DNA of 64,000 nucleotides from an uncultured Methylibium sp. Lineage in GTDB: Bacteria > Pseudomonadota > Gammaproteobacteria > Burkholderiales > Burkholderiaceae_C. Positions 21,528 through 63,172 of this stretch are shown piece after piece. The notes under the pieces were generated by a model. That model worked only from the letters and a program-made list of their open reading frames with translations. It did no database searches and had not been told where the DNA came from. Position numbers and translations under genes: made by a program. The stretch lies in contig NZ_CADEFR010000004.1 in the NCBI RefSeq assembly GCF_902826655.1, positions 62,001 through 126,000 on the forward strand, read 5' to 3'. Each line of letters begins with the position of its first letter. Position 1 is the first letter of the stretch.

Positions 21528-23750
21528 CTACCTGACGCGCCGATCCTCTGCATCGCCGGATGCTGTACCGTTGTTCAGCATCTGGAAGACGTACAGCGAA
21601 AGGTCCGCGACCAACCGGTCGTCGTGCGTACTGAGATCCAGGCCCGTCAGATCGGAGATTCGACCAAGCCGGTGTGCAATCGTCTTTCTGTGCACACCAA
21701 GCTTCTGCGACGCTGCTTCGTGTGAACAGTTCACATCGAAGTAGACGCGCAGCGTCTGCAAGAAGAGGTCGCGCTGCTTCGGTTCCTCGTTCAGCAACTC
21801 ACCAAGGTTCAGTTCCAGGAATCGCCGCATCCCGACATCATGGCGCAGACTCAGCAACATGCCGACTACGCCTGCACGGTCGTACACGACCGAGGCGGTC
21901 TTGCCCATCTGCCGTGAGACATCCAGCGCGATCTGCGCCTCCCGGTATGCGATTGCGAGAGCACGGGGAACGTGGCAGCGGCTGCTCCCACCCACCACAA
22001 CCTGGCGTCCACCAAGACCGTCGCTGATGGCTTCTGCGAGACCCTTAGCAAAACGTTCGGCGTTGTCGAGCGCCTGATCGGAACACAACACGGCGATCGA
22101 GCTGCCTTGCAATGCGATCGCGCGCGCCTTCTCGCCACGTACGGTCTGCACGGCATGTGTGATCTTCTGCCGAAGGATAGAGCCCGAGCTCTGCGCAGAT
22201 CCCGGAACCGTGGCGCCGAGTTCGCAGAGGTAGAGCCGCATCGGGCCCTCCAGATCCAGCTTGAGATCCGCCGCGCGGTCGATGGCCGCCGCACGTGCGG
22301 TCTCATCCGCGCGCAGCAAATCCCACAACGTTGCGTCGATCGACTCCGATCGTGCTCGGCTCGCCGATCGCTGTTCCAGCCGCTGCAAAGCAGCGATGAT
22401 CGCAACTTGCGTGAGTGTCAGCTCGATGAGCTCCGAGCGATGCGCGTCGTCGAGCGTTCCGAGGATCCAGGCCACTGCCTCGCCCTCGACAAAGATGGGT
22501 TGAACTCGCCAGGACAAGCCGCCCTGGGTCATCGACAGCCCCGCGGTGGCGACGCCTTGCGCGACGACGGCGGCGGCCACTGCAGCGACTAGGCCATGCG
22601 CCCGGTCACTACCACTCCATGCCAACAGTGTGCCGTCTCTGTCGATGACGGCCACGTCCGTCTTCAGCGTCGTGGACGTGGTAGAAACGATCGCATTCAA
22701 TCCGGTGCCTTGGAGCAGCAGCAGCATAAGTGTCTGCGTGAGGCTCGAGACGCTGCGCACGACGTCGAAGCGCTGGTTGAGCGCTTCATGCGCCTGCCCC
22801 AACTCCTCGACCATGCGGCGTTGCCCGGCGTAGAGTTCCGCGTTCTCTAGGGCGATCGATGTCAGATTCGCCAGCGCTGTCAGCCGGGTCGTGTCCTGTG
22901 GCGTGAATGTCGAGGGTCGACGACGCCAGACCTCCAGCACGCCGATGATGTCGTCTCGTCCGAGCAGAGGGGCCGCCAACGCCGAGCGAACGAGCTCGGC
23001 CTCGGCTAGGTGGAAGAAGTCGCGGCTGATGGCTTCGCTGGTGACATAGTCCTCGACCGAAGCTGGCTTGCGGTGTGCTAGGACGAGCCCGGCCAACCCC
23101 TGCCCGGGTCCCATCTGCAGGTTCGCCGTTTCCGGGGAGCGGTTACCGACGCAGCGGCGCATGACGATCCTGTCGTCCTGCCGCAGCAGAACGCCGCAGA
23201 TGTCCGCCGACAGCAGCTGCTTGGCCTCCTGCGTGATTAGCAGCAGGATCTCGCTCAGATCGTGGCTCTTGAGAATGCGGGTGGCGACCCGTTGCAGCGC
23301 CTGCACTTCGTCGAGGTTCTGGACGGCGATCCGCTGACGCTCACAGGTCTGTACAGCAAGCGCAAAGAACCTGCAGAACACGTCCAGAGAGTCGGAGGCT
23401 TCGATCGTGACGGGATCACCCTCGATCAGCAGAGCGAGCGCTCCGGGCGCAACCGGGACAAACACGCCCCTCCCCACCCGCAGCGGTGCTTCGTGCGTCT
23501 CGAGTCCTCCGGGAAGATCCAGACCCGGTGTGTCGCTAACAAGTTCCAGCGTTGACGGGGCATGCCAGGCGCCGCCAGTGCGCAGAATGACGCGCCCGCG
23601 GGCGGCGGGGAGCAGTTCGGCGACAGCCCGTTCGGCCTCCGCGAGCAGGAGGTCGTACTGCCCACGGGCCGCGGCAGTCGCGATCGGCTCGAGAACGCCC
23701 GCCAGTGCGCCTGCCATCAGCGTTCGCTTGGAGGTGAATCGATTTCCCAT
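21528..23750 (-). CDS. GAF/PucR-family transcriptional regulator 1
   Basis: 740 residues. A GAF-type sensor occupies about 150-300 (ILLLITQEAKQLLSADICGV, GQGLAGLVLA, IGVLEVWRRRPSTFT). A GGDEF-like activator region follows, and a PucR C-terminal helix-turn-helix closes the protein (LRVYFDVNCSHEAASQKLGV, HRKTIAHRLGRI). It is a paralogue of the regulator at 60860-63172, which shares the same domain order and many identical segments. It sits at the end of the leftward BMC arm, about 35 bp beyond the alcohol dehydrogenase gene, and is a good candidate to control the BMC operons. The ligand would be the BMC substrate or a product. Confidence 0.85.
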   Translation of the reverse strand: MGNRFTSKRTLMAGALAGVLEPIATAAARGQYDLLLAEAERAVAELLPAARGRVILRTGGAWHAPSTLELVSDTPGLDLPGGLETHEAPLRVGRGVFVPVAPGALALLIEGDPVTIEASDSLDVFCRFFALAVQTCERQRIAVQNLDEVQALQRVATRILKSHDLSEILLLITQEAKQLLSADICGVLLRQDDRIVMRRCVGNRSPETANLQMGPGQGLAGLVLAHRKPASVEDYVTSEAISRDFFHLAEAELVRSALAAPLLGRDDIIGVLEVWRRRPSTFTPQDTTRLTALANLTSIALENAELYAGQRRMVEELGQAHEALNQRFDVVRSVSSLTQTLMLLLLQGTGLNAIVSTTSTTLKTDVAVIDRDGTLLAWSGSDRAHGLVAAVAAAVVAQGVATAGLSMTQGGLSWRVQPIFVEGEAVAWILGTLDDAHRSELIELTLTQVAIIAALQRLEQRSASRARSESIDATLWDLLRADETARAAAIDRAADLKLDLEGPMRLYLCELGATVPGSAQSSGSILRQKITHAVQTVRGEKARAIALQGSSIAVLCSDQALDNAERFAKGLAEAISDGLGGRQVVVGGSSRCHVPRALAIAYREAQIALDVSRQMGKTASVVYDRAGVVGMLLSLRHDVGMRRFLELNLGELLNEEPKQRDLFLQTLRVYFDVNCSHEAASQKLGVHRKTIAHRLGRISDLTGLDLSTHDDRLVADLSLYVFQMLNNGTASGDAEDRRVR

Positions 23751-23784: not shown

Positions 23785-24822
23785 TCATGGGGTCATCACT
23801 GCCTTCAGGCGCTGCTGCTTGGCGAGCAGTTCGTACAGCCCCGGCGCGTCGGCCAGTCGGCCACGTGTGTCCACCACCACGGTGGGATCGAAGGCTCCGC
23901 TGGTGATCAGCCGCAACAGCTTGCGACGCAGGCGAATGCTGTCGCCGATCGCGAAGCTGAGGGTCATCTCGTCCTTGAACGCGCGGCCGACTGGAAAGGC
24001 CCAGCTTTCTGCTACGTGCGCGCCCACGGAGACGACGCGTCCGCGCGCGCGCGCCAGCGACATTGCGAAGTCGAGCGGGCCATTGCCGCCGACCGCCTCG
24101 ACGACGACCTCGGCACCGTCGCCATCCGTCAGTTTCCGCACCAGCACCGCGGCGTCGTCCGGATGCACGGCGATGGATCCCTGGGCAGTCGCGAACGCCC
24201 TGCGCGTTTCGTTGGGTTCGACCAGCACGACAATCCCCGCACCGGCCACCTGCGCCGACAATGCGGCGAGCTGGCCGACCGCGCCGCCGCCGATAACTAC
24301 GACGAAGTCCCCCGCTTGGGTGCTAGCGCGCTCGATCGCGACCCAGCCGGTGGCGAGGTTGTCACCCATCAGCAAGGCTGCTTCCGGTGCACACTGTTCC
24401 GGCAACTGGCCCAGGGTCTGGTCGGCAAACGGCACCCGGACGTACTCCGCCTGCGCTCCGGAGATGCTGGGGCCGAATGCGGTGCCGGTGCCGAAGAAGG
24501 CCCGCTCAGTGCACTGCCAGTGTTCGGCTCGATCGCACCAGCGGCACTGGCCGCAGGCAGTGAAATCGGAAGACATCACCTTGTCGCCCAAGCGAATTCG
24601 GTGAACTGCACGACCTACTTCCACGACCTCGCCAACGAATTCGTGTCCAATCACCGCACCCGGCGTGATGCCCGCGAAGTCGCCCTTCACTACATGCAAG
24701 TCCGTGCCGCAGATGCCGGCGTGCGTGACCTTCACGATAGCATCAGTCGCCTCGGCAATGTGCGGTTCTGGGACGTCGCTGACTTCGACGTGCCCGGGGC
24801 TCTTGTAGACGACGGCTCGCAT
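23785..24822 (-). CDS. zinc-dependent alcohol dehydrogenase (MDR family)
   Basis: 345 residues. Catalytic zinc ligands in GICGTDLHVVKG and GHEFVGEV; structural-zinc cysteines in TACGQCRWCDRAEHWQC; cofactor-binding VVVIGGGAVGQLAAL followed by an acidic residue in VLVEPNETRR, suggesting NAD. It is probably the alcohol-forming or alcohol-oxidising partner of the aldehyde dehydrogenase at 27910-29307, recycling NADH as in other metabolosomes. It has no obvious encapsulation extension at either end. Substrate is not predictable; the closest pattern is the Tdh/sorbitol/isopropanol dehydrogenase branch. Confidence 0.88.
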   Translation of the reverse strand: MRAVVYKSPGHVEVSDVPEPHIAEATDAIVKVTHAGICGTDLHVVKGDFAGITPGAVIGHEFVGEVVEVGRAVHRIRLGDKVMSSDFTACGQCRWCDRAEHWQCTERAFFGTGTAFGPSISGAQAEYVRVPFADQTLGQLPEQCAPEAALLMGDNLATGWVAIERASTQAGDFVVVIGGGAVGQLAALSAQVAGAGIVVLVEPNETRRAFATAQGSIAVHPDDAAVLVRKLTDGDGAEVVVEAVGGNGPLDFAMSLARARGRVVSVGAHVAESWAFPVGRAFKDEMTLSFAIGDSIRLRRKLLRLITSGAFDPTVVVDTRGRLADAPGLYELLAKQQRLKAVMTP

Positions 24823-25165: not shown

Positions 25166-26464
25166 TCAGCAAGGGACCGGGAGCTCGGCGATCCGCGCGG
25201 CGATCCGCGCGGCGGCATCCTGCAACGCCTGCTGTTCTGCCGGCCGCAGCGCCAGCGGAACGATCTCCTTGAGACCGCGACGGTGCAGCCGCACGGGCAG
25301 CCCGACACGCGTGTCCACCGCCCCATAGGCGCCGCGCGAGCGCACGCACGCGGCGATGACCTCGCCGCTGTCGCGCACCATCGCGCGCACCATCGTCACG
25401 GCCGATTCGGCGGGCGAGAAGTACGCACTGCCTTTTTGCAGCAGCTTGACTACCTCGCCACCCGACTCCCGTGCCCGCTCGACCAGGGCCTCGAGCGTCT
25501 CGGCGTCGAACATCGACTCGATCGGTCGGTCGCCGACGAAGGCCTGGCTGAGCGGGATCACCATCTCGGGACCGTGACTGCCCAGCGCGACTGCACGGAC
25601 CTCCTGCGGTCGCGCCTTGCCCGTCAGGCCGACGAGCGCGCAGAAACGCGCCGAGTCCAGCACACCCGCCATGCCGAGCACGCGCTCTTCCGGGAAGCCG
25701 GTCTGCTGCGCGGCCAGGTGCGTCATTTCCTCGAGCGGATTGCTCACGATCACGAGCGTCGAGTTCGGCGCATGCGTGCGGATGCCGCGGCACACCGACG
25801 TCATGATCTCGGCATTCACCGCCGTCAGGTCGGTCCGACTCATGCCCGGCTGGCGCGGCTTGCCGGCGGTGATGACGATGTACTCGGCACCGGCCAGTGC
25901 CACGAGGTCATCGCTGCCCGACAGCCGCGTGGAGAAGCCGTACAGGCCGGCGCCATGCCACATGTCCAGCGCGAGCCCAGCGGCCAGGCCCGGCACCACG
26001 TCGACGAGCGCCACCTCCGAGAAGAGATCGCTTTCGGCCAAGCGCAGGGCCGTCATGGCGCCCACGTGGCCGGCCCCGACCACGCCCGCCTTGGGCCGCC
26101 GGTCGACCGCTCGGGAAGGTTGTGCACTCGGCCCCAACGCATTGCGGCGATACAGGGCACCCGACGGCGGCAGCACCAGCGGCCGAGAACCCCTGGCGGC
26201 GGGCGGCGCAACCGGAGTCGCCGGGCGTGCGGCGGACACGGGCGCAGGGGCCGGCGCGGCAACCGGGGACTTCACGACTGGAGCCGAAGTCCGCGTCGGC
26301 AAGGCAGACGGCGTCGATGCGCCAGATGACGAACCTGCGGCTTCGACGACGATGCCGAGTTCCCGGGCCCGATCGCGTGCCAGCGGCGTTAGGCGATCGC
26401 CTGCGGCGAGGATCAGCTTGCCACCTGCGGCTTCGACGTCGGCGGCAGTCAGCATGCGAGCCAT
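25166..26464 (-). CDS. malate/lactate dehydrogenase-like enzyme with BMC-type N-terminal extension
   Basis: 432 residues. Residues 1-45 (MLTAADVEAAGGKLILAAGD then RLTPLARDRARELGI) resemble the TP-x-AR-x-A-x-x-LG segment found in EutQ and other metabolosome proteins. A ~75-residue Ala/Pro linker leads to a catalytic domain with VVGAGHVGAMTAL (Rossmann), GKPRQPGMSRTDL (substrate Arg loop), VSNPLEEM (NPxD-like), GMAGVLDSARF and GSHGPEMVIPL (catalytic His). MDH/LDH enzymes interconvert 2-oxo and 2-hydroxy acids with NAD(H). Its ATG overlaps the tandem shell gene stop (TGATG). I infer NADH recycling inside or at the compartment; malate specificity is likely but not proven. Confidence 0.8.
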   Translation of the reverse strand: MARMLTAADVEAAGGKLILAAGDRLTPLARDRARELGIVVEAAGSSSGASTPSALPTRTSAPVVKSPVAAPAPAPVSAARPATPVAPPAARGSRPLVLPPSGALYRRNALGPSAQPSRAVDRRPKAGVVGAGHVGAMTALRLAESDLFSEVALVDVVPGLAAGLALDMWHGAGLYGFSTRLSGSDDLVALAGAEYIVITAGKPRQPGMSRTDLTAVNAEIMTSVCRGIRTHAPNSTLVIVSNPLEEMTHLAAQQTGFPEERVLGMAGVLDSARFCALVGLTGKARPQEVRAVALGSHGPEMVIPLSQAFVGDRPIESMFDAETLEALVERARESGGEVVKLLQKGSAYFSPAESAVTMVRAMVRDSGEVIAACVRSRGAYGAVDTRVGLPVRLHRRGLKEIVPLALRPAEQQALQDAAARIAARIAELPVPC

Positions 26465-27081
26465 CACTTGCCCTCCAGCTGCTCGATGCAAGCGATGGCC
26501 GCGGCAGCGGCTGCCTGCACGTCGCTTTCGGTGCCCGAGATGAACAACCGCCCGAACCGGCCGAGCGCACGCACTTCGACAATCGTGATGTCGGCTGCCT
26601 TCTCGGCTTCGTTGGCGGCCAGCGAGACATAGGCGGCCGGCGACACCTCGAGCACGTACAGGCTTTGTCCGGGAATGAGCAGGTTGCCCTTGCGCCACTT
26701 GTTGATGAGCTGCGCCTGATACGGGTTGACGTTCGTCACGAACATCGACGAGGCGACCTTCGGTTTGACCCGGTCCGCCTCGGTGAGCTTCAGGTGCTCG
26801 AGCACCGCTTGACCGGCGGCCTGCACCTCGGCCTGCGTTCGCGAGTGGATCTCCAGCAGACCGAACTCCCGCTCGACGACCTGCAGAGCCGGCCTCACGT
26901 CAGCCGCCTTCAGAGCGATATCGGCGCAGCGGAAGATCTCGTTGCCCGGAGCCACCTCGATGTAGAGCTCGGACATGCCGGCCACGGGGACGTCGCCCTG
27001 GCAGGTGGCGGCGACGTGCGCCGCCGCTTGCGGCTGCATGCGGTCGACGAAGGCGTAGGTGCGCAGTTGAAAGTTATCCAT
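26464..27081 (-). CDS. tandem BMC-domain shell protein (BMC-T)
   Basis: 205 residues built of two BMC folds. The first spans about 10-95 (ALKAADVRPALQVVEREFGL), the second about 100-203 (NEAEKAADITIVEVRALGRF, GRLFISGTESDVQAAAAAAI). Such proteins form pseudohexameric trimers, some with gated central pores, that pass cofactors or larger metabolites through the shell. The gene is coupled to the dehydrogenase downstream and follows a EutJ-like gene by 3 bp. The order of domain elements fits a circularly permuted type, but I cannot verify this without structure comparison. Confidence 0.85.
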   Translation of the reverse strand: MDNFQLRTYAFVDRMQPQAAAHVAATCQGDVPVAGMSELYIEVAPGNEIFRCADIALKAADVRPALQVVEREFGLLEIHSRTQAEVQAAGQAVLEHLKLTEADRVKPKVASSMFVTNVNPYQAQLINKWRKGNLLIPGQSLYVLEVSPAAYVSLAANEAEKAADITIVEVRALGRFGRLFISGTESDVQAAAAAAIACIEQLEGK

Positions 27082-27084
27082 GGC

Positions 27085-27909
27085 TCAGCTCAGTGCAATT
27101 CCAAATGGAGTGATCAACTCGGCGTGTGCATAGCCCTGGACCTTCCAGCCGAGATAGCGCGCGATGACGGCATCGGCGCCAGGGATCTGCAGGGCGCCGC
27201 CCGCCAAGTAGACTGTGCCGGGGTCCCGTCCAGCGCATTGGCGCCGGACGGACTCGGCTACGCGCTCAATGCCCGGACGCAGCAGTTGCATGACCTCTGC
27301 CCCGTGCTCGCGCTTGTGGACCTCGGCGGCCTCGACGGGAAGCTTCAGTGCGCCGGCGAGGATCAGATCGAGGTGATGGCCGCCACCTGCGAAGTCGCTC
27401 AGGGTGGCGAGTTCGCCGCCACGGAAGACGCCGACGCCGGTCGAGCCGCCACCCACGTCCACGACCGCACCATCTTTGACTTGCAGGATGGCGTTCGCCG
27501 CAGTGACCTCGTCGACGAGGCTGCGACAGTCGATCCCCGCCTGCTGCAGCACGAAGGCACAGGCACGGCAGTCACTCACCGGCACTGCCGGCGGATGCGC
27601 GGTTGCCGCTGCTTCGATCTCCATCCCGAGTGCCGCTTCACTGCTGGCCTTCAGCTGCCGTACCGCCTGCACTGCGCCATGAAAGTCGACCACGACTCCG
27701 TCGCGGACGACCTGGGCGCTGATGAAATCCCAGTACACAGGCTCACCCTGCGCGTCCACGGCAGCGATCACGACGGTCGCCGTGCCGAGGTCCACCCCGA
27801 AGCGCAGCGGCACCTGCGGCGTCGACGGTTTGCGCAGACGCGCAGCGGCGCCGTCCAGGAAGCGCTGCACACGCGCCAAGCCAGTGTCGGTCTCGGTTCG
27901 CATGAGCAT
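27085..27909 (-). CDS. eutJ: EutJ-like Hsp70-fold protein
   Basis: 274 residues with actin/Hsp70 ATPase motifs in order: FGVDLGTATVVIAAVDA (phosphate 1), VVDVGGGSTGVGVF (phosphate 2) and GTVYLAGGALQIPGADAV (adenosine). There is no Hsp70 substrate-binding domain, which is typical of EutJ, a putative chaperone of ethanolamine and related metabolosomes. It starts immediately after the aldehyde dehydrogenase stop and ends 3 bp before the BMC-T gene, inside a shell-gene operon. Confidence 0.85.
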   Translation of the reverse strand: MLMRTETDTGLARVQRFLDGAAARLRKPSTPQVPLRFGVDLGTATVVIAAVDAQGEPVYWDFISAQVVRDGVVVDFHGAVQAVRQLKASSEAALGMEIEAAATAHPPAVPVSDCRACAFVLQQAGIDCRSLVDEVTAANAILQVKDGAVVDVGGGSTGVGVFRGGELATLSDFAGGGHHLDLILAGALKLPVEAAEVHKREHGAEVMQLLRPGIERVAESVRRQCAGRDPGTVYLAGGALQIPGADAVIARYLGWKVQGYAHAELITPFGIALS

Positions 27910-29307
27910 CTACAGCCCCATCGTCGGCAGGTAGATGTCGCGCCAGGGGCGGTTCTGGTGGGCGACGCGCTTGATGTTGATGAGGTGCATCGGCGTCACG
28001 TTGTCCGACACGATCGAGCCGCTCCAGGTGCCAGTACCCAGCATGAACGACGGGTCGGTGCCGGCGCTGAACCCCATGCCACCGAGCAGGCTCGGCGTGT
28101 TGACGACGATGCGCGAGGCCGGCAGGTCCGACATGCGCGCCACCATCTCCGCGTCCTGGCCGTGCAGACCGAGCGTGTGGCCCTCACCGCCGAAGGCCAG
28201 CACCTCGCGGCAGCGCTGATGTGCGGCGCCAAGATCGCGTGTCCGATAGAACGACAGCACGGGTCCGAGGATCTCGGCTGACAGCGGTGTCTGCGGACCC
28301 ACGTCGTCCAGCGCGGCGCCGAGCACCTTCGTCCCGGGTGGCACGGTCATGCCGATGCGCCGGGCCAGCTCGGTCGCGGTTTGACCCACAGCCTCCGGAT
28401 TGAGCGCCCCGCGCCCGATAAACAGCAGCTCGGTTAGCCGGCGCTGCTGCTCGGCGTCGAGGAACACGGTGCCGTGCTGCTCGAAGGCCTTGATGGCGGC
28501 GTCGGCGATCGGCTCATCGAGCACGACCGACTGCTCCGCAACGCAGGCAGTCCCGTTGTCGAACGACTTCGACGTGATGACCATCAGCGCCGCTTCCGAC
28601 ACGTCCGCCACCGAACGATGGATGTAGACCGGGACGTTGCCGGCGCCGACGGCCAGCGTCGGCTTGCCCGAGGAGTAGGCAGCCCGGACCATCGCAGCCC
28701 CGCCGGTCGCCATCACGAGCGCGGTGTCGCGGTGCGCCATCAGCTCGCGCGTAGCGGGCAGCTGGCCGCCAGACAGGCACTGCAGCAGGCCGATCGGCGC
28801 GCCGGCGCGCTCGGCCGCCTCGGCCATGATCTCCACGGTCCGAACGCAACACTTCGCCGCCCGCGGATGCGGCGCGCAGACGATCGCGTTGCCCGACTTG
28901 ACCGCCGCCAGGCACTTGAAGATCGTCGTCGAGGTGGGGTTTGTCACCGGGATGATCGCGGCGATCACGCCCATCGGCGCGCCGATCGCCGTAACGCGTG
29001 CCACCTCGTCGGTCCACAGCACGCCCAGGGTGCGCATCTTCTTCATCGCATGAGCGCAGAACTTGGCGTTGTAGAGGTTCTTGAGGATCTTGTGCTCGTA
29101 CACCCCGTAGCCGGTCTCGTCGACTGCCAAGCGCGCCAGTTCCGCCGCGGCCACCTCGGCAGCATGGCCCATGGCATCGACGATTCGGTCGGCCTGCTCC
29201 TGGGTGACACCCTGGAAGGCCTCGAAGGCTTGGCGGGCGAGCTGCGCCTTGGTGCGCGCCTCGCCGATCGCCACGAGTTCTGGATCTAGGAAGTTGAAGT
29301 CGGTCAC
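27910..29307 (-). CDS. CoA-acylating aldehyde dehydrogenase (EutE/PduP type)
   Basis: 465 residues. GAPMGVIAAIIPVTNPTST (cofactor-binding), TGGAAMVRAAYSSGKP, VGAGNVPVYI and the nucleophile Cys in SFDNGTACVAEQSVV mark the CoA-dependent acetylating branch that turns aldehydes into acyl-CoA with NAD. This is the core enzyme of nearly all metabolosomes. Unlike PduP it lacks an N-terminal ELxxLIRxIL-type targeting helix; it may enter by association with another enzyme. GTG start at 29307 has only a weak ribosome-binding site; the coding sequence begins MTDFNFLDPELVAIG. Confidence 0.92.
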   Translation of the reverse strand: MTDFNFLDPELVAIGEARTKAQLARQAFEAFQGVTQEQADRIVDAMGHAAEVAAAELARLAVDETGYGVYEHKILKNLYNAKFCAHAMKKMRTLGVLWTDEVARVTAIGAPMGVIAAIIPVTNPTSTTIFKCLAAVKSGNAIVCAPHPRAAKCCVRTVEIMAEAAERAGAPIGLLQCLSGGQLPATRELMAHRDTALVMATGGAAMVRAAYSSGKPTLAVGAGNVPVYIHRSVADVSEAALMVITSKSFDNGTACVAEQSVVLDEPIADAAIKAFEQHGTVFLDAEQQRRLTELLFIGRGALNPEAVGQTATELARRIGMTVPPGTKVLGAALDDVGPQTPLSAEILGPVLSFYRTRDLGAAHQRCREVLAFGGEGHTLGLHGQDAEMVARMSDLPASRIVVNTPSLLGGMGFSAGTDPSFMLGTGTWSGSIVSDNVTPMHLINIKRVAHQNRPWRDIYLPTMGL

Positions 29308-29482: not shown

Positions 29483-29800
29483 TCAGCGCGGCTTGGGCAG
29501 GATGCCTTCAACGTCTTCGTGCGGGCGCGGGATCACGTGCACCGAGACAATCTCGCCGATCTTCCCGGCAGCGGCCGCGCCGGCATCGGTCGCGGCCTTC
29601 ACCGCGCCGACGTCGCCGCGCACCATCACGGTGACAAGGCCGCCACCGATCTGCTCGCGCCCGACCAGCCGCACGTTGGCCGCCTTGACCATCGCGTCGG
29701 CGGCCTCGATCGCGCCGACCAGGCCCTTGGTCTCGATCAGCCCGAGCGCGCCGCGCGGGCCCTCGTTGACCGCGCCGGTCGTGATGGGGTTCGTTGCCAT
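29483..29800 (-). CDS. hexameric BMC shell protein 1 (BMC-H)
   Basis: 105 residues, one Pfam00936-type BMC domain: [60 protein letters not shown] and the terminal [15 protein letters not shown]. It is the main facet tile of the compartment. AAGGAG lies upstream of the ATG at 29800. The pore-loop region reads QIGGGL where the other two hexamer proteins in this window read QPGGGI, so pore chemistry may be slightly different. The gene lies between the vertex gene and the aldehyde dehydrogenase. Confidence 0.95.
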
Positions 29801-47585: not shown

Positions 47586-47588
47586 CCC

Positions 47589-55920: not shown

Positions 55921-56925
55921 GTGATTCGCGACGACGACGCAGACTTTCACGCACCCGATCCGGCCCATCCGACCTGGGCGGAGACCAACTACTTCGGCTT
56001 CTACAACGCCGAGGAGCATCTCAACGTCGGGGTGTATGCCCTGTTCCGCCCCAATCTCGGCACGGTCACGACCTCGGTCTGCATGAACTCGCGCCGCACG
56101 GTGACGCACTGGGAGGCTGACTTCTGCGACATGCGCTCCGCCGTGCCGATCCCGCAGCCGCGCAACCTGCGCGACTACGCGCTCAGCAGCGGCCTGCACG
56201 TGCGCTGCCTTGCGCCCAACCGGCAGTGGCAGATCGACTACGACGACGGCCACGGCACCCGCATCGACGTTCGCTACGAAGCGCTGATGCCGGCCTTCGA
56301 CATCCACGATCCGGCGATGGACCCGATGTGCGCGTCGGCGTCTCAGGAGGGTAAGTTCGCCTGGGGCACCGCCTACAACGGGCACTTCGATCAGACCGGC
56401 GCCTTCAAGGGCAGCGTCACGGTGCGCGGGCGCACTGTGCCGATCGATTGCGTTTCGACGATGGACCACAGCTGGGGCCCGCGCCCCGAGCGCGGCGCGC
56501 CCGCGATGAGCTGGCTGCACGCTCACTTCTCGAAGGACTTGGCGATCCACGCCATCCTCGGTTTCAATCCGGCACAGGACAACGGGCGCGAACTGTGGCT
56601 CGCGCACGGCTATGTGCTCGAGCGCGGCAAGGTCTTCGGGCTGAAGGCCGGCACCGGCCAGACGCTGCGAAAGCAGGAGCGCTATCCCGAGAGCATCGCC
56701 CTGCGACTGACCGACGGCACCAATCGCGTGTGGGAGCTGAATGGGCGCGCCGTGACCACGATGCCTTGGGTCTACGTGCCCAACAGCATCGGCTTCAACA
56801 CGCTCAGCGAGTGGACCTGCGGCACGCAGCGCGGCTGGGGCGAGGTGATGGACTTCATCGAGTTGCCGGTCCTCAATACGCTCAACAGCGCCCCGGCCAC
56901 GTTGCGCGCGTCCAAACCGCTTTGA
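55921..56925 (+). CDS. CrtC/AttH-like (lipocalin-type hydratase-like) protein 2
   Basis: 334 residues from the GTG at 55921, preceded by GAGGAGACAATC. It is about two-thirds identical by eye to the protein at 30347-31345, with the same landmarks: WAETNYFGFYNAEEHLNVGV, YEALMPAFDIHDPAMDPM and STMDHSWGPRPERGAPAMSW. Conservation of the HSWG region in both copies suggests it is the active or ligand site. It is the first gene of the second rightward BMC-associated operon and is intact, while the HAD gene behind it is not. Confidence 0.65.
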   Translation: MIRDDDADFHAPDPAHPTWAETNYFGFYNAEEHLNVGVYALFRPNLGTVTTSVCMNSRRTVTHWEADFCDMRSAVPIPQPRNLRDYALSSGLHVRCLAPNRQWQIDYDDGHGTRIDVRYEALMPAFDIHDPAMDPMCASASQEGKFAWGTAYNGHFDQTGAFKGSVTVRGRTVPIDCVSTMDHSWGPRPERGAPAMSWLHAHFSKDLAIHAILGFNPAQDNGRELWLAHGYVLERGKVFGLKAGTGQTLRKQERYPESIALRLTDGTNRVWELNGRAVTTMPWVYVPNSIGFNTLSEWTCGTQRGWGEVMDFIELPVLNTLNSAPATLRASKPL

Positions 56926-56933: not shown

Positions 56934-57332
56934 GTGCCGCCCGCCATCTTCTTCGACACAGATGACACCCTGGTGGACACGCGCGCCGCATCGTGGAAGC
57001 TGTTCGCGCAGACGAACAGCAAGCACGGTCCGGGCGCCCCCACTCGCCTTGCATCCTCTGCCATCTTCGAGGAGAGTTTCCTCGAGTCGCTGACGCGGCG
57101 CTGTTCGTCGGCATCGCGCCCTGCTTTTCAAACGCGTTTTCGGGCGACTGCAGCACGGCCTACCGCGAGGACGCGCCGGGCGGGGACATCCGCGGCGCAC
57201 GGCCGCGGACGCCCAGGTGATTTGGGCGCCGCGCCGCGTGACCCGGAGGCCGGCGTGAAGGCGCAGCAGCGTGGTGGGCGGGCCGGCGCCGAGCCCGTCG
57301 CCACGCGCCGCCCGCGCGACCACTCGCCGTAG
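56934..57332 (+). pseudogene. decayed HAD phosphatase paralogue
   Basis: Begins MPPAIFFDTDDTLVDTRAAS then WKLFAQTN, matching the first 30 residues of the HAD enzyme at 31379-32353, but the nucleophile motif DLDGT has become DTDDT. Similarity fades after ESFLESLTRRC; motifs II-IV are absent and the rest is Arg/Ala-rich. The gene is a remnant of the duplicated CrtC-like/HAD cassette. Confidence 0.7.
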
Positions 57333-57425: not shown

Positions 57426-58673
57426 ATGAAGTGCCTAGAACTGATGCCCCTCGAAGAAACCGTCAAGTGGGCCAAGCATAACTCCTGGTACGTGGCCGAC
57501 CTGTTGGCCCGCCGGGGCACAGAGGGCGTGAACCCGCTGATTCCGCGCGCGGAATACGAGATGCTGTCGTTCCAAACCACGTTCTTGCAGCACCCATGGC
57601 TGTACATGTGGCTGGGCGAGAAGGTCGGCATGGAGGGCATCCGCGCAACCTGCAGCTCCGGCCACCGGGAGTTCGGGATCAAGACGATCACGCCGTGCAA
57701 CATCCAGTGGGGCTGCGGGATTGCGCTGTTCGGCCGGCTGTTCCTGATCGACGGTGGTCTGATCGGGCCGAACGACTACACCGACAACCTGCGCATCATC
57801 TACAGTTTCTGGCGCACCGTCTTCGAGGGCTACATGCGGCAGAAGAAGCCCGCGGTCATGGACCTGGGCTATGCGCTGCAGGTGCTCGACCAGGACGTGG
57901 TCGAAGATCTTGGCACGAAGGTGGAGTCGCTGCGCGACCCGGAACTGCGCGCCACCGTGGGCCGCTTCAACTCGCTGGCGCAGCTGATGGGCTTCCTCGA
58001 CCACTACGACAACCGGCTCGGGCTGGGCGACACCGGCCCGTACGACCTCGGCGACCGCTTGATGCTGGTCCGGGACTGCTTCGTCAACGAGAAGTCATTC
58101 CCTTGGACCTACGTCGTCGGCGACCTGCCGTTCTCGTACTCGCTGGTCCTGACCTACGACAAGAAGAAGATGATGCGCGACCGCCAGAGCGGCAAGCTGA
58201 AGATGTTCTCGATCTACAACACCGGCACGCTGTTCTGCGATCCGGCCGACTACGAGGACGAGGCACTGATCGAGGCGGCAGTCTATATGCGCGACGCCGA
58301 CTTCCCGAATGGCACGACCACCAGGATTCCGCTGAATGAGCTGGAGACGCACATCGAGAAGATCGAGGGCGCAGTCGAGCGGATGTACTCGTATCTCGCG
58401 ATGAAGCCACATTTCGACAAGATCCTCGAAGGCAACTGGACCTATGTCGCTGCCTCGCTGCCCTACGTGCGGGCGCACGACCTCGAGGCCGAGGCCGCCT
58501 CCATGGGGTTCTGGGACATGGATCTGCGCAGCATGGAGTACCTGCTCAAGGGCTACGGCAGGGCCGGCGAAGTCCAGCGCAAGGCGACGGCCGGGCTGGG
58601 AGCGCCTCCGCCGCAGCTTCCGGGGTTCCGCTGCAGGGGAACCAAGTTCGGCAGATACGAGATCAACAACTGA
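57426..58673 (+). CDS. uncharacterised 415-residue protein of phosphotransferase cassette
   Basis: Start ATG at 57426 follows AAGGAGACACGAAG; the frame is open further upstream but without a signal. Notable segments: RAEYEMLSFQTTFLQHPWLY, TPCNIQWGCGIALFGRLFLI, SFWRTVFEGYMRQKKPAVMD, LPFSYSLVLTYDKKKMMRDR and a C-terminal helix-rich region. No signal peptide or clear membrane helix, no nucleotide-binding motif that I can name. It is followed at short spacing by a 153-residue protein and a free-standing PEP-utiliser swivelling domain, so I infer a subunit of a multi-part ATP-dependent phosphotransferase, analogous in organisation to phenylphosphate synthase. Confidence 0.6.
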   Translation: MKCLELMPLEETVKWAKHNSWYVADLLARRGTEGVNPLIPRAEYEMLSFQTTFLQHPWLYMWLGEKVGMEGIRATCSSGHREFGIKTITPCNIQWGCGIALFGRLFLIDGGLIGPNDYTDNLRIIYSFWRTVFEGYMRQKKPAVMDLGYALQVLDQDVVEDLGTKVESLRDPELRATVGRFNSLAQLMGFLDHYDNRLGLGDTGPYDLGDRLMLVRDCFVNEKSFPWTYVVGDLPFSYSLVLTYDKKKMMRDRQSGKLKMFSIYNTGTLFCDPADYEDEALIEAAVYMRDADFPNGTTTRIPLNELETHIEKIEGAVERMYSYLAMKPHFDKILEGNWTYVAASLPYVRAHDLEAEAASMGFWDMDLRSMEYLLKGYGRAGEVQRKATAGLGAPPPQLPGFRCRGTKFGRYEINN

Positions 58674-58709: not shown

Positions 58710-59171
58710 ATGGCTGATATCAAAGTGAAGAAGGACGCCGAGAAGCGGTTTGCTTGGTCGCACGAGGAGTGGACCCTGAGCAAGAACTTCCAGACGGCCG
58801 ACGAGTTCGAGACCTGGCTGAGCAACGAGTCGAAGTACTTCATCCGCTGCAACTCGGGCTTCTACGCCCAATGCGTGATCGTCTGCATCGAGTCCAAGGG
58901 CGACGAGTTCCTGGCTTACGTGGACGCGTACAAGGGCAAGTTCCCCCCCTGGTACACGGCCGAGGAACTGGCCGTACTCGACATCGACGAGCTGCGCAAG
59001 GAGCCGGCGAAGATCAAGTGGGACGAAGATTGGGAGTGGACGACGCTGCGCAAGACCGACTTCCCGCTGCGTCTGAAGGAAGTTGTCTTCCTCTACCCGC
59101 CTCAGGAACCCGCGATTCCGTGGCTCTTCCTCTCGCCCGAGGAAAGCGGTCTGGACAAGATGAAGATCTGA
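58710..59171 (+). CDS. uncharacterised 153-residue cassette protein
   Basis: Start ATG at 58710 follows AAAGGAGCTGAAC. Charged, soluble protein rich in Trp and acidic residues: MADIKVKKDAEKRFAWSHEE, FETWLSNESKYFIRCNSGFY, AQCVIVCIESKGDEFLAYVD. No family recognised. Fixed position between the 415-residue protein and the swivelling-domain protein suggests it is a small subunit of the same complex. Confidence 0.6.
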   Translation: MADIKVKKDAEKRFAWSHEEWTLSKNFQTADEFETWLSNESKYFIRCNSGFYAQCVIVCIESKGDEFLAYVDAYKGKFPPWYTAEELAVLDIDELRKEPAKIKWDEDWEWTTLRKTDFPLRLKEVVFLYPPQEPAIPWLFLSPEESGLDKMKI

Positions 59172-59192: not shown

Positions 59193-59642
59193 ATGGCTAA
59201 CGAGACCGAGATCGACGGTTACCGCTACATCGGACAGGGCTACAACGTGGTTCCGATCGGCCGCCACAAGGGCGTGGCGCTGAACGTGACAGATCCGAAA
59301 CAGATGATCGCGTTGATGAAGGACCCGCAGAAGATCAAAGAGACGATGGTGGTCACGCCCGGCGGCACGACGACCTTCGTCGCGCCGCTGCTGTACAAGA
59401 AGCCCGCCGGCATCATCACCTACGCCGGAACGCCCGAATCTCACCTCGGCATCGTGGGGCGCAACTTCCGCGTGCCGATCATCATGACGCTGACCCTCGA
59501 GGGGGCGGAGTCCATTCCCGACGGCACGCCGCTGCTGATGGAGTGCGACGGCAAGCTGGGCCGCGTCTATGCGAAGATGGAAGTGAAAGCGGGGGCGCAG
59601 CAAGCGCCTGCGGATCAGTCGCCCGGGTCGACGCTCGGGTAA
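59193..59642 (+). CDS. free-standing PEP-utiliser swivelling (phosphohistidine) domain protein
   Basis: 149 residues, ATG at 59193 after CAGGAGACACTCAC. The core KPAGIITYAGTPESHLGIVG, RNFRVPIIMTLTLEGAESIP, DGTPLLMECDGKLGRVYAKM follows the pattern of the mobile domain of PEP synthase and PPDK (G...SHxaivaR.f.vP.v......l.dG..v.vdg..G.vy), with His84 as the expected phosphate carrier. No ATP-grasp or barrel domain is attached, so it must work with other proteins, most likely its two upstream neighbours. Assignment rests on motif pattern only. Confidence 0.65.
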   Translation: MANETEIDGYRYIGQGYNVVPIGRHKGVALNVTDPKQMIALMKDPQKIKETMVVTPGGTTTFVAPLLYKKPAGIITYAGTPESHLGIVGRNFRVPIIMTLTLEGAESIPDGTPLLMECDGKLGRVYAKMEVKAGAQQAPADQSPGSTLG

Positions 59643-59742: not shown

Positions 59743-60315
59743 ATGCTTACCGAAACTGAATTCCTCGTCTTCAATGCGGTCTATTTGAAGAAGATGGTCG
59801 CTGCACCGCAGATCGTCGAAATGACGGGCATAGGGGCGGACGACGTCGCGCGCTGTCTCGAGGACGCGACGACGCGGGGTTGGGTAATGGATATGGGCGC
59901 CGACGGCGTGATGGTGCTCGACGACGGCGCCGCTGAGGTGTTGAAGCACTACGCCGAGGCCTATGTCCAACAGCGCAAAGATCCGGCGATGACCGCCTGG
60001 TACCACGGCTTCGAGGCGCTGAACCTGCGCTTCATCGCCGCGGTGACGCAATGGCAGGAGAGCGACGGGGACTCGACCGCCGAGCGCCGACTGCTGCAAG
60101 CGGCCGAACGGCTGGCCAAGGACATCGCGCTGCTGATGCCGGCGATCCCCCGCTATGCGGGCTACGTCGGCCGTCTGGAGAGCAGCATGGAAAGGGTCGA
60201 CTTGGGCGAACGCGACTTCGTCTGCAACCCGACCGTGGACTCGGTGCACAACGTCTGGTTCGAATTCCACGAGGACATCCTCACGGTGCTCGGGCGCAAG
60301 CGCGATACGACGTGA
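59743..60315 (+). CDS. unknown protein, possible winged helix plus helical domain
   Basis: 190 residues. The first 65 residues ([40 protein letters not shown]) look like a winged-helix fold; the remainder is alpha-helical ([20 protein letters not shown]). It lies 100 bp after the cassette and upstream of the third shell gene, with no strong ribosome-binding site. It may be a small regulator or a structural/adaptor part of the phosphotransferase complex. No catalytic motif seen. Confidence 0.55.
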
Positions 60316-60565: not shown

Positions 60566-60844
60566 ATGACCGATGCCCTGCGCGGGGCGGCGCTGGGGCT
60601 GGTAGAGACGATCGGCAAGACTGCCGGGATGCACGCTGCCGACGCGATGGTGAAGGCGGCGAACGTGACCCTGCAGACGGCGCAGCAGCCGGGCGGCGGC
60701 ATCATCACGGCGATCGTGGTGGGCGCGGTGCGCGCGGCCGGCGCGGCCGCGAAGGGTACCGTCGGAAAGGTGGGCGCCGCGCACGTGATTCCCCGCCCGC
60801 ACGAAGAGGTCGAAGACATTATCGAGCGGCCCTGCGTGCGCTGA
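60566..60844 (+). CDS. hexameric BMC shell protein 3 (BMC-H), shortened
   Basis: 92 residues from the ATG at 60566, after [52 protein letters not shown] and [20 protein letters not shown] align with hexamer protein 2. The helix segment that reads [18 protein letters not shown] there is reduced here to [11 protein letters not shown], about six residues shorter, while flanking residues are conserved. The loss falls in the second BMC helix, so this tile may be mis-folded, specialised, or non-functional. It lies 15 bp before the second PucR-type regulator gene. Confidence 0.88.
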
Positions 60845-60859: not shown

Positions 60860-63172
60860 ATGCACCGGGCAAAGCGCAGCAAACACTTGGCCGTCGTGCC
60901 GCCTTCGGCTGGCGAGGCTTTGCCGGACCCTTGGCCGCACCTTGCTCCCAGCCCCGAGCCGGCCCTGCAGATCGGCGGCGCCCTGCGGGCGGTGGCCGAC
61001 GCCGCGCTCGGCGGCGATCAACGGGTGAAGGAGGTGGCGGCAGCGTGCTTCGCCGCCGCGCTTGGCGGTTGCGGCGTGGCCGTGATCGAACGGGTGGGCG
61101 CAGGTTGGTGCCGCGCCAGTGAGAATGCGTGCGGGCCGGGCGAACTCATTGCTGAGCTTCCGACGTCGGTCGCGACGTCGGGCGACATCTCCGTGCTGCC
61201 GGGTGTAGGCACCTTCGTGCCGGTGAATCCGGGGATCGGCGTCCTGGCGGATTGCCAGCTCGTCGACGCGGACCGGGCCCAGGTGCTGCGCTGCCTTGCG
61301 ATCGGCTTCGAACTCGCGCTCACCGCGGCGAACCAGTATCGCGTCACGAGGGACGCGATGGAAGAGATCGACAGCCTGCAGCAGGTCGCCAGGCGCATTC
61401 TGTCCGCATCCGAACTGGACGAGGTGCTGTTCTCGATCGCGCGCGAGACGGTCCGGCTCCTTGGCGCGGACATCGGCGGGGTGTTTCTTCGAGACGGCGA
61501 CGAGCTCGTGATGCGCAGTTGCGTCGGCAACGACACGCTGGACATCGATCGGCTCAGGATGAAGCGTGGACAGGGCCTTGCAGGGCGCGTTCTAGAGACC
61601 GGGCGCCCGTGCAAGGTCGACGACTACCTCGCCAGCGATCATGTCAGCCGCGACTACTTCTGGCTCGTTCGCGACGAGCAAATCCGCTGCGCGGTGGGCG
61701 CGCCGCTGCTTGCGCGAGAAGGCGTGATCGGCGTGCTCGAGGTTTGGCGCCGACGCGACGTGCCGTTCACCGATCAGGACGAGAAGCGCGTCGCCGCGCT
61801 CGCCAATCTGACGGCGATCGCGGTCCAGAATGCCCGGCTGTACGAAAGCCAGAAGGCTTCAGTGCAGCAGCTCACACAGACCAACGAGAGTCTGCGCCAG
61901 CAGCACGAGGTCGTGCGTGTGTCGGCACAACTCCAGGACGACGTCATCGGCGCCCTACTGGACGGCGGCGGCATCACGGCGATCGCGCGGATCGTCGCCC
62001 GCCGTGCCGGTGTGGAGGTCGCGATCCTGGGGACCGATCTCGGGGTAATGGCTGCCTATCCGGCGCAGGTCTCGAACGGCGACTGGCTCGAGCGGGTGGA
62101 GACCGCCGTGCGGCAGTTCCCCGGGTACGCCAACAACACCAGCGTGACCTCCCGAGAGCGCGATGGCTGGCTCTCGCTGCGTCCGATCGTTGCTGGCGGG
62201 GACCGGATTGGCTGGGTATGCATGCGCTCGAACAGTGAGCCGGCCGAGATGCAAGAAGCCGCGAGCCGTCAAGGAGCGGTCGCTAGCGCGCTGTATTGCC
62301 TTGAGCAGCGTGCTGCAAGCGTCGCCCGGGCATCCGCGCTCGGCGCGTTGATGTGGGACTTGCTGGAGGGCACGCCGCCGGTCAGGCAATCCGCGCTCGA
62401 GCGTTTGGCGGAGTTCCACATCGACCTGAGGGGTCCGCACCGCGTCGTCCATTGCACCATCGAGGGCCTGGCCGAGACGGCGCGCGGCGAGGGTTGGAAC
62501 ATGGACACGGTGCAGCGCAAGCAGCGCGACGTGCGAGATGCGAGCGAGCGAGCGCTGAGCGCTGCGGGACTGAAGTTGGCGTCCTCCCGTGGCGATCTGA
62601 TCGTGGCGATCATCCCAGCGCTGGACGCCGCGCAGGTGACGCGGCAGCTCAAGTCGCTGAACGAGGAGATCCTGGCGAGGGACAAGGTCAGAACGTTCTG
62701 GGGCGTCAGCGCTCCATTCGATTCGCCGTCGCAGCTGTCGAACGCCAACCAGGAGGCCAAGTGTGCCGCGCTGGCCGTTGGGAAGCTGGGCACGGCGCAG
62801 AGCCCGGTGGTAATTCACGAGCATCTGGGCGTGCTGACGTTGTTATTGAATGGTGGCGGTATTGCCGAGGGGCACGACCTTCGCAAGTACGTCGACCGCA
62901 TGCTGGGCCCGATGCTCAAGTACGACTCCGCGCACCATGGCGTCCTGGCGAAGACGATCCGGTCCTATCTGGACAACGATTGTTCACTGAAGCTGACGGC
63001 GCTGCAGCTTTTCGTCCACGAGAAGACCGTCCGCTACCGTCTCGCCCAGTTCGAGGAGCTGACGGGCGTCGACTTGCGCCGCCACCGCGAACGGATGTCG
63101 GTCGACCTAGCGTTGCTGATGCACGACTTCGCGACCCGGTCGGCCGGCGTAGCAGGCAAAGGGGCGGGCTGA
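60860..63172 (+). CDS. GAF/PucR-family transcriptional regulator 2
   Basis: 770 residues, paralogue of the protein at 21528-23750. GAF sensor at about 165-320 (FSIARETVRLLGADIGGVFL, KRGQGLAGRVLETGRPCKVD, VIGVLEVWRRRDVPF), a central activator-like region and a PucR-type C-terminal helix-turn-helix (RSYLDNDCSLKLTALQLFVH, EKTVRYRLAQFEELTGVDLR). Two such regulators bracket the split BMC system and may recognise the same promoter motif or respond to two metabolites. It follows the third shell gene by 15 bp. Confidence 0.85.
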   Translation: MHRAKRSKHLAVVPPSAGEALPDPWPHLAPSPEPALQIGGALRAVADAALGGDQRVKEVAAACFAAALGGCGVAVIERVGAGWCRASENACGPGELIAELPTSVATSGDISVLPGVGTFVPVNPGIGVLADCQLVDADRAQVLRCLAIGFELALTAANQYRVTRDAMEEIDSLQQVARRILSASELDEVLFSIARETVRLLGADIGGVFLRDGDELVMRSCVGNDTLDIDRLRMKRGQGLAGRVLETGRPCKVDDYLASDHVSRDYFWLVRDEQIRCAVGAPLLAREGVIGVLEVWRRRDVPFTDQDEKRVAALANLTAIAVQNARLYESQKASVQQLTQTNESLRQQHEVVRVSAQLQDDVIGALLDGGGITAIARIVARRAGVEVAILGTDLGVMAAYPAQVSNGDWLERVETAVRQFPGYANNTSVTSRERDGWLSLRPIVAGGDRIGWVCMRSNSEPAEMQEAASRQGAVASALYCLEQRAASVARASALGALMWDLLEGTPPVRQSALERLAEFHIDLRGPHRVVHCTIEGLAETARGEGWNMDTVQRKQRDVRDASERALSAAGLKLASSRGDLIVAIIPALDAAQVTRQLKSLNEEILARDKVRTFWGVSAPFDSPSQLSNANQEAKCAALAVGKLGTAQSPVVIHEHLGVLTLLLNGGGIAEGHDLRKYVDRMLGPMLKYDSAHHGVLAKTIRSYLDNDCSLKLTALQLFVHEKTVRYRLAQFEELTGVDLRRHRERMSVDLALLMHDFATRSAGVAGKGAG

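Follow-up and report, generated by a model that had tools for sequence, protein, structure and literature searches.

A shell-linked phosphotransferase module as candidate signature enzyme of a MIC1-type microcompartment locus in Methylibium

The question raised by the locus described here was which enzyme produces the aldehyde for a bacterial microcompartment (BMC) in whose gene set an initial annotation had recognized no known signature enzyme. The locus lies in a 64,000-nucleotide stretch of DNA from an uncultured Methylibium sp. (contig NZ_CADEFR010000004.1, positions 62,001 to 126,000; G000:C4:62001-126000), which we call the window; the genome comprises 4.22 Mb in 142 contigs. The annotation had proposed that the signature step was an ATP-dependent phosphorylation by phosphoenolpyruvate (PEP)-synthase-like proteins acting together with a "CrtC-like" protein and a HAD phosphatase. 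Our approach was to classify the locus, to follow its genes through other genomes, and to examine the phosphotransferase proteins themselves. Comparison of gene content showed that the PEP-synthase-like module, the "CrtC-like" protein, and the HAD protein form a constant, shell-linked enzyme set in both Pseudomonadota and Actinomycetota.

Locus type and the search for a signature enzyme

Pfam agreed with the annotation for all five shell genes (three BMC-H, one BMC-T, and one BMC-P), and the four matches to PF00936 in this genome all lie inside the window. Pfam and NCBIfam profiles also found the aldehyde dehydrogenase (AldDH), the alcohol dehydrogenase (ADH), the malate dehydrogenase (MDH)-like enzyme, EutJ, the HAD protein, a protein resembling pyruvate phosphate dikinase (PPDK), a stand-alone PEP-utilizing mobile domain, and two copies of the "CrtC-like" protein. 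That last name was loose; Pfam assigns the protein to DUF7064/DUF7065, and an NCBIfam scan of one copy matched the Rv3169 family weakly, at 43.8 bits where the cut-off is 150. As annotated, the genes form two clusters around a cobalamin operon, here a cobalamin riboswitch followed by a B12 operon whose gene names were taken from strain PM1. A PM1 plasmid has the same genes in the same order, with identities of 93–99% for the BMC and g44–g47 genes and 88–98% for the B12 operon; the third BMC-H was not detected in PM1. When the gene set was looked for in other genomes, as the annotation had proposed, it was found conserved in 26 other loci, several of which end at contig ends, and because of this conservation a chance assemblage was excluded.

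Axen et al. (2014; PMC4207490) named metabolosome with incomplete core 1 (MIC1) as a locus type with an AldDH, an enzyme of the lactate/malate dehydrogenase Pfam family, a zinc-dependent ADH, a hydrolase/phosphatase, an MreB-like protein, and shell genes, and without a phosphotransacylase (PTAC) or a signature enzyme. Their description of MIC1 names neither a substrate nor a phosphotransferase and gives the type no function, and PM1 is not mentioned in the main text of that paper; further MIC types were described by Sutter et al. (2021; PMC8217296). In the window we found an acylating AldDH together with BMC-H and BMC-T/BMC-P shell genes, one dehydrogenase of the lactate/malate family, one zinc-binding ADH, and an MreB-like protein, hydrolase, and phosphatase, with the HAD_2 and Hydrolase matches falling on a single protein. 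Pfam found no PTAC (PduL) and no signature enzyme among 20 locus proteins; PduL was not searched genome-wide. As judged by its genes, the locus fits the published MIC1 type and is thus not of an unknown type, although MIC1 itself has no assigned function. Searches of open-licence PMC literature on microcompartments with Methylibium, tert-butyl alcohol (TBA), or Pseudonocardia, and on methylbutenol, prenol, or prenal, showed no assignment of a function to this locus.

The locus has its shell types, acylating AldDH, and ADH in common with the PDU, EUT, GRM, and PVM types, and its lactate/malate dehydrogenase family enzyme in common with PVM. It differs from PDU, EUT, and GRM loci in that whole-genome searches gave no match for their diol dehydratase (PF02286), ammonia-lyase (EutB, PF06751), or PFL-like glycyl-radical enzyme (PF02901), the diol dehydratase negative being weak because its control matched nowhere. 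The claim that no known signature enzyme is present therefore stands for these three families, with that reservation for the first; the RuBisCO and aldolase (PF00596) families were not searched. Two candidates were rejected. Use of B12 by a diol dehydratase was dropped because that enzyme had no match in the genome (weak control), and the likely B12 user is the hcm mutase next door. An ARO-type BMC (PMC8217296) was dropped because no ring-cleavage family was seen in the 20 scanned locus proteins.

Linkage and architecture of the phosphotransferase module

The genes at issue are PPDK, g46 (the mobile phospho-histidine domain), g44, and two small genes, g45 and g47. They could be mere neighbours of the shell genes, for example a regulatory or anabolic PPDK, with the true signature enzyme encoded elsewhere in the genome, and the PM1 orthologue of g47 is indeed annotated as a regulator. 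The co-occurrence results spoke against this explanation. We searched 297 Pseudonocardiaceae genomes for the MIC1-type BMC-T and for close g44 orthologues. The BMC-T (375–385 bits) was present in 18, and a close g44 orthologue (74–79% identical to the R. oxybenzonivorans protein) was present in 17 of these 18 and in none of the other 279 (Fisher p = 9e-27, not corrected for relatedness). In the one discordant genome, G700, the contig with the BMC-T is 9.8 kb long. Distant g44-like matches (34–42%) in four BMC-T-negative genomes (G447, G473, G587, and G662) were excluded from the close orthologues, and G472, with a BMC-T match of 258.7 bits and no g44, was treated as another BMC type and left outside the 18.

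The association extended to gene position. In 16 of the 18 loci, g46-g44-g47-PPDK lay in the same fetched stretch (at most 40 kb) as the shell genes, AldDH, EutJ, MDH, ADH, DUF7064, and HAD, and no more than 20 kb from them; the other two (G433 and G700) are cut by contig ends, with the g44 of G433 on a separate contig. The full set was also found in R. oxybenzonivorans and in two further Mycobacteriales genomes (G792 and G804), and the Methylibium-type module in G429–G431. Starting from close g44 orthologues (85–98%) instead, BMC proteins were found in 8 of 10 genomes, the remaining two g44 loci being on 7- and 10-kb contigs. Clustering of the genes of 24 regions showed that only locus genes and an IphP-like tyrosine phosphatase (12 regions) recurred in at least four regions. 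Elsewhere g44 was rare: it occurred in 2 of 60 relatives, the window's own genome included, and distant homologues occurred in 3 other genomes among 369 of the class.

Its constancy and its linkage to the shell make this enzyme set the leading candidate for the signature step, and we consider it quite probable that the shell-linked phosphotransferase is the signature module. The annotation's idea of such a module was right in outline, supported by co-occurrence in two phyla. Relative to MIC1 as published, the core enzymes and shell are shared; what is added is the constancy of the phosphotransferase and DUF7064 module and a proposal for its function, including a specific hypothesis for the MIC1 substrate.

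Some members of the set had unusual arrangements. At G614:C4:65878-68593 the g44 match consisted of two segments and contained a single in-frame stop; the gene may be broken, in a MIC1 locus that is otherwise intact. Pseudonocardia sulfidoxydans (L020; G433:C154 and G433:C13) has both the shell-linked g44 module and a Methylibium-type module with g45 and an Hcl-like ligase in one genome. Folate one-carbon genes (FolD- and PurU-like by eye) were seen 1–10 kb from g46 in G605 (L091/L092) and G699 (L087/L088).

The proteins themselves also argue against unrelated neighbours. Of 36 rows in the PPDK comparison, 30 were compared and one was a control; the rest, a fragment of 128 aa and four truncated proteins, were left out. 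All 30 full-length PPDKs retain the histidine motif SHAA, all 30 g46 rows have the motif SHLGI, and PPDK1, the copy in the window, has both the ATP-binding domain PF01326 and PF00391. The PEP/pyruvate site was compared at the positions that we take, for both roles and numbering, to be E745, N768/D769, C831, and R561 of C. symbiosum PPDK. None of the 30 proteins retains the Glu or the Asn-Asp pair; the Cys is lost in 28 and ambiguous in PPDK1 and its PM1 copy, and the Arg is ambiguous in L022, L023, and the group of PPDK2, a second PPDK just outside the window. The control, a PEP-utilizing protein of unchecked function from the flank of G646 (25% identical to PPDK2), has all four positions intact, and alignments to solved PPDKs agree with the residue comparison.

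Fusions in relatives indicated what may have replaced this site. In R. opacus B4, a single 793-aa protein contains a PEP-mobile domain (57–108), a g44-like region (173–587), and a g47-like region (606–788; E = 3e-17). The three are likewise fused in G662 (799 aa), and a second copy in G725 is fused without g47. The PPDK-like proteins of these three fused clusters (534–605 aa) and of G473 (487 aa, unfused) lack all or nearly all of the PEP domain, as checked with Pfam for the R. opacus protein. In these proteins g44 occupies the place of the PEP/pyruvate barrel of PPDK, which therefore suggests that g44 binds the phosphate acceptor. The altered PEP site and the g46-g44-g47 fusion, together with the lack of genome matches for three canonical signature enzyme families, make the mere-neighbour explanation distinctly improbable.

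Phenylphosphate synthase, rifampin phosphotransferase, and PigC/RedH combine an ATP-grasp domain and a swivelling phospho-histidine domain with an exchangeable acceptor domain. The locus proteins gave low-scoring NCBIfam matches to RPH, PigC, and RedH, and they have, in architecture only, the separate ATP-binding and phospho-histidine/acceptor subunits of a phenylphosphate-synthase-like split phosphotransferase. The module differs from such enzymes in being split with a second phospho-histidine domain and linked to a microcompartment. No Pfam or NCBIfam family matched g44, and its only match among PDB sequences was to a cytochrome-b5 domain (E = 0.6), which was taken as chance. We regard g44 as an apparently new acceptor-domain family among the PEP-synthase-like phosphotransferases. 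An acetone carboxylase-like function for g44/g45 was considered and dropped for want of a family match. Fused phospho-histidine-g44(-g47) proteins (L028:11335-13716; L136; L138) were seen beside kinase-like genes, a P450, a short PPDK, and a DUF7064-sized hypothetical protein, and may constitute a second, shell-free family of putative alcohol-phosphorylating clusters.

Proposed pathway and substrate

The reading that we put forward is a MIC1-type metabolosome in which the aldehyde is made by way of ATP-driven phosphorylation rather than by a radical or B12 enzyme. With substrate and chemistry both deduced from genes, we give it slightly less credence than disbelief. In Methylibium, tert-amyl alcohol would be converted by MdpJ to methylbutenol (2-methyl-3-buten-2-ol). 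PPDK and g46 would pass a phosphate from ATP to the hydroxyl of the alcohol bound by g44, and the DUF7064 protein would move or eliminate the allylic phosphate or hydroxyl. The resulting phosphate ester would enter the shell and be dephosphorylated by the HAD protein in the lumen; ADH would oxidize the primary alcohol, the acylating AldDH would form the acyl-CoA, and the MDH-like enzyme would recycle NAD+. The sequence of intermediates would be 2-methyl-3-buten-2-ol, prenyl phosphate, prenol, prenal, and 3-methylcrotonyl-CoA, the last a substrate for 3-methylcrotonyl-CoA carboxylase (MCC). This full cycle, in which the tertiary hydroxyl of methylbutenol is phosphorylated, the DUF7064 protein shifts the group to give prenyl phosphate, the charged ester crosses the shell, and prenol freed by the encapsulated phosphatase goes through the volatile and toxic prenal to 3-methylcrotonyl-CoA without leakage, is possible, with doubt predominating. 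If true, it would close the gap between methylbutenol and prenol in fuel-oxygenate degraders, give actinobacteria a pathway for hemiterpenes from plants, and widen metabolosome chemistry from radical, B12, and aldolase signature enzymes to phosphorylation-dephosphorylation.

HAD proteins from shell-linked loci were compared with that of a shell-free relative. A long linker was present in all 26 shell-linked HAD proteins (the window's and 25 relatives), most of which end in a short helix like DELLxAxRRI; the tails of G435 and R. oxybenzonivorans deviate from this pattern, and the G430 HAD, a tblastn match not called as a gene, is outside the 26. In the one shell-free locus, on plasmid p2 of Paraburkholderia sp. 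PGU19 (L030, 718796–749845), the HAD protein has 230 aa and no tail. There the genes run DUF7064, HAD, g46, g44, g47, and PPDK, and then come ADH, an AldDH resembling the non-acylating AldDH of R. oxybenzonivorans, and a CoA ligase. Shell genes had no match in this 31-kb stretch, and BMC-T had none among the sequences of this strain in the plasmid collection, a search that did not extend to its chromosomes. We read the cluster as this pathway without its shell; it suggests that phosphorylation comes first and dephosphorylation second, and that alcohol, aldehyde, and acyl-CoA follow in turn. The source of this strain is given as Physopelta gutta, and its sequence record is unannotated.

Genomic context points to C5 branched alcohols as the substrate class. 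On plasmid pRB98 of R. oxybenzonivorans, a carboxyltransferase gene (MCC beta) lies 0.2 kb past the last BMC-H, followed by MCC alpha and a MaoC hydratase. This carboxyltransferase scored 1010 bits with AccD1, 793 with MCC beta, 495 with geranyl-CoA carboxylase, and less than 300 with the listed propionyl-CoA carboxylases except 9tps. At the same position past the shell genes, G792 has an HMG-CoA lyase (369 bits, cut-off 246), an enoyl-CoA hydratase, MCC beta (AccD1, 838 bits; MCC, 768; 9tps, 763; geranyl-CoA carboxylase, 484), and MCC alpha. A rough model (24 loci, one MCC per 4.5 Mb) gave p of approximately 0.005 for such adjacency within 10 kb on either side. No acyl-CoA dehydrogenase was seen in the R. 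oxybenzonivorans stretch (annotation) or in the G792 stretch (by eye), and because none was seen beside MCC, entry at 3-methylcrotonyl-CoA, and hence from prenal, is simplest. We consider the case for 3-methylcrotonyl-CoA as the product evenly balanced.

MdpJ reportedly turns tert-amyl alcohol into 2-methyl-3-buten-2-ol. The mdpJK genes lie within about 17 kb of the locus in the window's genome, PM1, G429, G430, and G431. PM1 Mpe_B0555, listed as TBA hydroxylase (PMC4517660), was matched by gene order to the Rieske gene at 502–504 kb of the PM1 plasmid. Methylbutenol may be isomerized to prenol in A. tertiaricarbonis L108 and PM1 by enzymes described in 2016 as uncharacterized (PMC4791888). 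For that step the locus offers candidates, and it has the enzyme types needed for a methylbutenol-to-prenol route; methylbutenol is our tentative choice of substrate, held with less confidence than disbelief. The proposed net reaction, from a tertiary to a primary allylic alcohol, is like that of linalool dehydratase-isomerase and linalool isomerase (PMC4791888). The proposed route differs in depending on phosphorylation, and none of the locus proteins scanned was recognized as Ldi-like, though no dedicated search was made.

The same phosphorylation-driven metabolosome might act on another class of substrate and form an aldehyde different from prenal. Candidates are ketones, further tertiary or secondary alcohols, and alcohols derived from isoprene or terpenes. 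Related fused g46-g44 proteins, in R. opacus B4 and elsewhere, are encoded alongside P450, kinases, ADH, AldDH, and CoA ligase, so the enzyme family extends beyond C5. In R. oxybenzonivorans the module adjoins a Baeyer-Villiger monooxygenase-like enzyme, an esterase-like hydrolase, ADH, AldDH, and a ligase, and few loci have MCC alongside. Set against these points is the MCC cassette found directly beside the shell genes in two loci, and we regard a different substrate as rather unlikely.

A further explanation is that the compartment serves the TBA route. ADH and AldDH would then convert 2-methyl-1,2-propanediol, through the toxic 2-hydroxyisobutyraldehyde, to 2-hydroxyisobutyryl-CoA for the B12-dependent mutase, and the phosphotransferase would be a separate neighbour. 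The B12 operon lies between the clusters, and hcm, hcl, the lyase gene, and mdpJK are near the BMC genes in the window's genome, PM1, G429, and G431 (hcmAB and the lyase gene in G435). However, the 18 Pseudonocardiaceae stretches have the same enzyme set and gave no match for hcm, hcl, or mdpJ (tblastn, E 1e-6, 35% coverage). The propanediol and hydroxyisobutyraldehyde dehydrogenases of PM1 are assigned separately, to Mpe_B0561 and Mpe_A0361 (PMC4517660), and the explanation leaves the phosphotransferase, DUF7064, and HAD unaccounted for. The TBA route is therefore an improbable function, and 2-hydroxyisobutyraldehyde was dropped as the main cargo aldehyde on the same grounds.

Several observations weigh against the phosphorylation-driven reading or its C5 version. 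MCC genes adjoin just 2 of 25 MIC1 regions, and no MCC match was found in the window, the fetched flanks, the PM1 stretches, or L014, L015, and L021; G429 has a weaker MCC-like pair (48/58%) about 16 kb away. MCC proximity may also be incidental because in G472 (L117/L118) MCC lies about 14 kb from a different BMC (BMC-T 53%) that is beside a glutamine-synthetase-like protein (by eye) and has no g44 match. The MCC assignment leans on AccD1, which we take to be MCC, and the PDB chain 9tps, labelled propionyl-CoA carboxylase, nearly equals the MCC chains (787 bits for pRB98, 763 for G792). In Proteobacteria the locus also adjoins the hcm/hcl genes of the TBA route, which has no obvious need for a phosphotransferase. 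Structure prediction gave a pLDDT of 31 for g44 (11 sequences, 85–98% identity) and 33 for DUF7064 (7 sequences), and because these structures could not be predicted, acceptor binding by g44 rests on domain logic. The helix moment of the HAD tail exceeded the 95% shuffle level in just 12 of 26 proteins. Linkage is looser in two genomes: in G725 the module is about 9 kb from the phosphatase genes, with several genes between module and shell genes, and in G804 about 7 kb of other genes separate the two.

Two decayed copies and their surroundings

The annotation had treated the two clusters as a single split system. Relics of the missing genes indicate instead that the window contains two MIC1 copies with complementary gene loss. 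Cluster 1 (21.5–35.9 kb) has the shell genes, AldDH, EutJ, MDH, ADH, DUF7064 copy 1, HAD, and PPDK1; cluster 2 (52.0–63.2 kb) has DUF7064 copy 2, intact g44-g45-g46-g47, BMC-H3, PucR2, and relics of HAD and BMC-P (Table 1). Between HAD and PPDK1 in cluster 1 lie relics of g46 (E = 2e-7 against the full window, 2.5e-9 when 707 bases were searched) and g44 (aa 14–109 of the R. oxybenzonivorans protein, E = 1e-25; 56% to aa 10–105 of the Paraburkholderia g44). The HAD relic in cluster 2 gave E = 9e-13 in the window search. The eutN remnant of the annotation is probably real; it is short and weak in the whole-window search (E = 0.012), and it matched the G429 BMC-P at 70% over 20 codons (E = 6e-6 in 801 bases). 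A longer relic occurs between the same two genes in Piscinibacter MQ-18. In the tree, PPDK1 groups with the Paraburkholderia PPDK (support 100/100, the Paraburkholderia row being a long branch) and PPDK2 with Burkholderiales/Steroidobacter PPDKs. Shell, core enzymes, DUF7064, HAD, g44–g47, and PPDK form one contiguous locus in TGS_PRO28 (G429) and in the metagenome-assembled genomes from Steroidobacter (G430) and Lake Pavin (G431).

Table 1. Features of the two clusters and adjoining genes, in window coordinates
Feature	Position	Strand	Basis
PucR-type regulator with GAF domain (PucR1)	21528..23750	-	Pfam HTH_30, GAF
Zinc alcohol dehydrogenase	23785..24822	-	Pfam ADH_N/ADH_zinc_N (PF08240/PF00107); 20/24 clustered regions
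Lactate/malate-dehydrogenase-like enzyme, 432 aa, start 26464	25166..26464	-	Pfam Ldh_1_N/C (PF00056/PF02866); PM1 length equal
BMC-T shell protein	26464..27081	-	Pfam BMC; 96.6% to PM1, 71% to R. oxybenzonivorans
EutJ/MreB-like ATPase	27085..27909	-	Pfam FtsA, MreB_Mbl; PM1 orthologue annotated EutJ
CoA-acylating aldehyde dehydrogenase	27910..29307	-	TIGR02518, 489.5 bits, under 620 cut-off
BMC-H1	29483..29800	-	Pfam BMC, 103 bits
BMC-P (EutN/CcmL) vertex protein	29840..30145	-	Pfam PF03319, 84 bits
DUF7064/7065 ("CrtC-like") protein, copy 1	30347..31345	+	Pfam
HAD phosphatase with Pro/Ala linker and C-terminal amphipathic helix (encapsulation-peptide-like)	31379..32353	+	Pfam HAD_2; tail analysis
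Relic of g46-type phospho-histidine domain gene	32434..32586	+	32% to R. oxybenzonivorans g46
Relic open reading frame, ~96 N-terminal residues of a second, actinobacterial-type g44	32719..33033	+	53% to R. oxybenzonivorans g44
PPDK1, PPDK-like phosphohistidine protein, altered PEP/pyruvate site	33030..35564	+	TIGR01828, 543.6 bits vs cut-off 843; residues
BMC-H2	35561..35863	+	Pfam BMC, 94 bits
Cobalamin riboswitch	36603..36868	+	Rfam RF00174, 61.6 bits
TonB receptor and cobalamin salvage/biosynthesis operon	37014..49444	+	PM1 orthologues (89–98% identity) annotated cobalamin genes, receptor, ABC transporter
BMC-P (eutN) relic, probable	52040..52102	-	57% over 21 codons
DUF7064/7065 ("CrtC-like") protein, copy 2	55921..56925	+	Pfam
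Relic of second HAD gene	56943..57125	+	51% to HAD aa 4–64
g44, candidate acceptor-substrate subunit of phosphotransferase	57426..58673	+	Fusion and co-occurrence
g45, small subunit, occurs with Methylibium-type g44	58710..59171	+	No Pfam match; adjoins g44 in 10/10 loci
g46, stand-alone phospho-histidine mobile domain (PESHLGIVGR)	59193..59642	+	Pfam PEP-utilizers
g47, small protein	59743..60315	+	PM1 orthologue annotated MarR-type; fused behind g44 in relatives
BMC-H3, apparently internally shortened	60566..60844	+	Pfam BMC, 57–60 bits
PucR-type regulator with GAF domain (PucR2)	60860..63172	+	Pfam
GntR-type regulator, start of hcm/hcl (2-hydroxyisobutyrate) cluster continuing past the window	63247..63918	-	99% to PM1 GntR beside mutase genes

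Three of the listed proteins had further features. BMC-H3 scored lower than the other two BMC-H proteins (94–103 bits) and has 92 aa against their 100–105; it looks internally shortened. The lactate/malate dehydrogenase-like enzyme, the probable NAD+ recycler, has an N-terminal LTPLARxRAxELG module and a Pro/Ala linker, and the N-terminal part of the PM1 copy had no PDB match up to E = 10. The EutJ/MreB-like protein matched PF06723 at 27.8 bits, barely over the cut-off of 27.

PM1 carries the locus on its megaplasmid, near the TBA genes hcm, hcl, and mdpJK. In the window, transposase-like open reading frames (by eye) occupy 53881–55506, between the B12 operon and cluster 2, and IS630/IS256 genes are found at the corresponding place in PM1. 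Downstream of the window (G000:C4:126001-163290) the order is hcmB-hcl-meaH-hcmA-ATR-2-hydroxyacyl-CoA lyase-...-mdpK-mdpJ-...-PPDK2-HIBDH, the hcm and mdp names being taken from gene order and the PM1 table; the lyase matched NF058623 at 737 bits. After HIBDH come transposases and then, up to the contig end, housekeeping-looking genes (RelA, OmpR/EnvZ, IspD/F, and Mfd, by eye), and the island may be chromosomal in this genome, whereas in PM1 it is on a plasmid.

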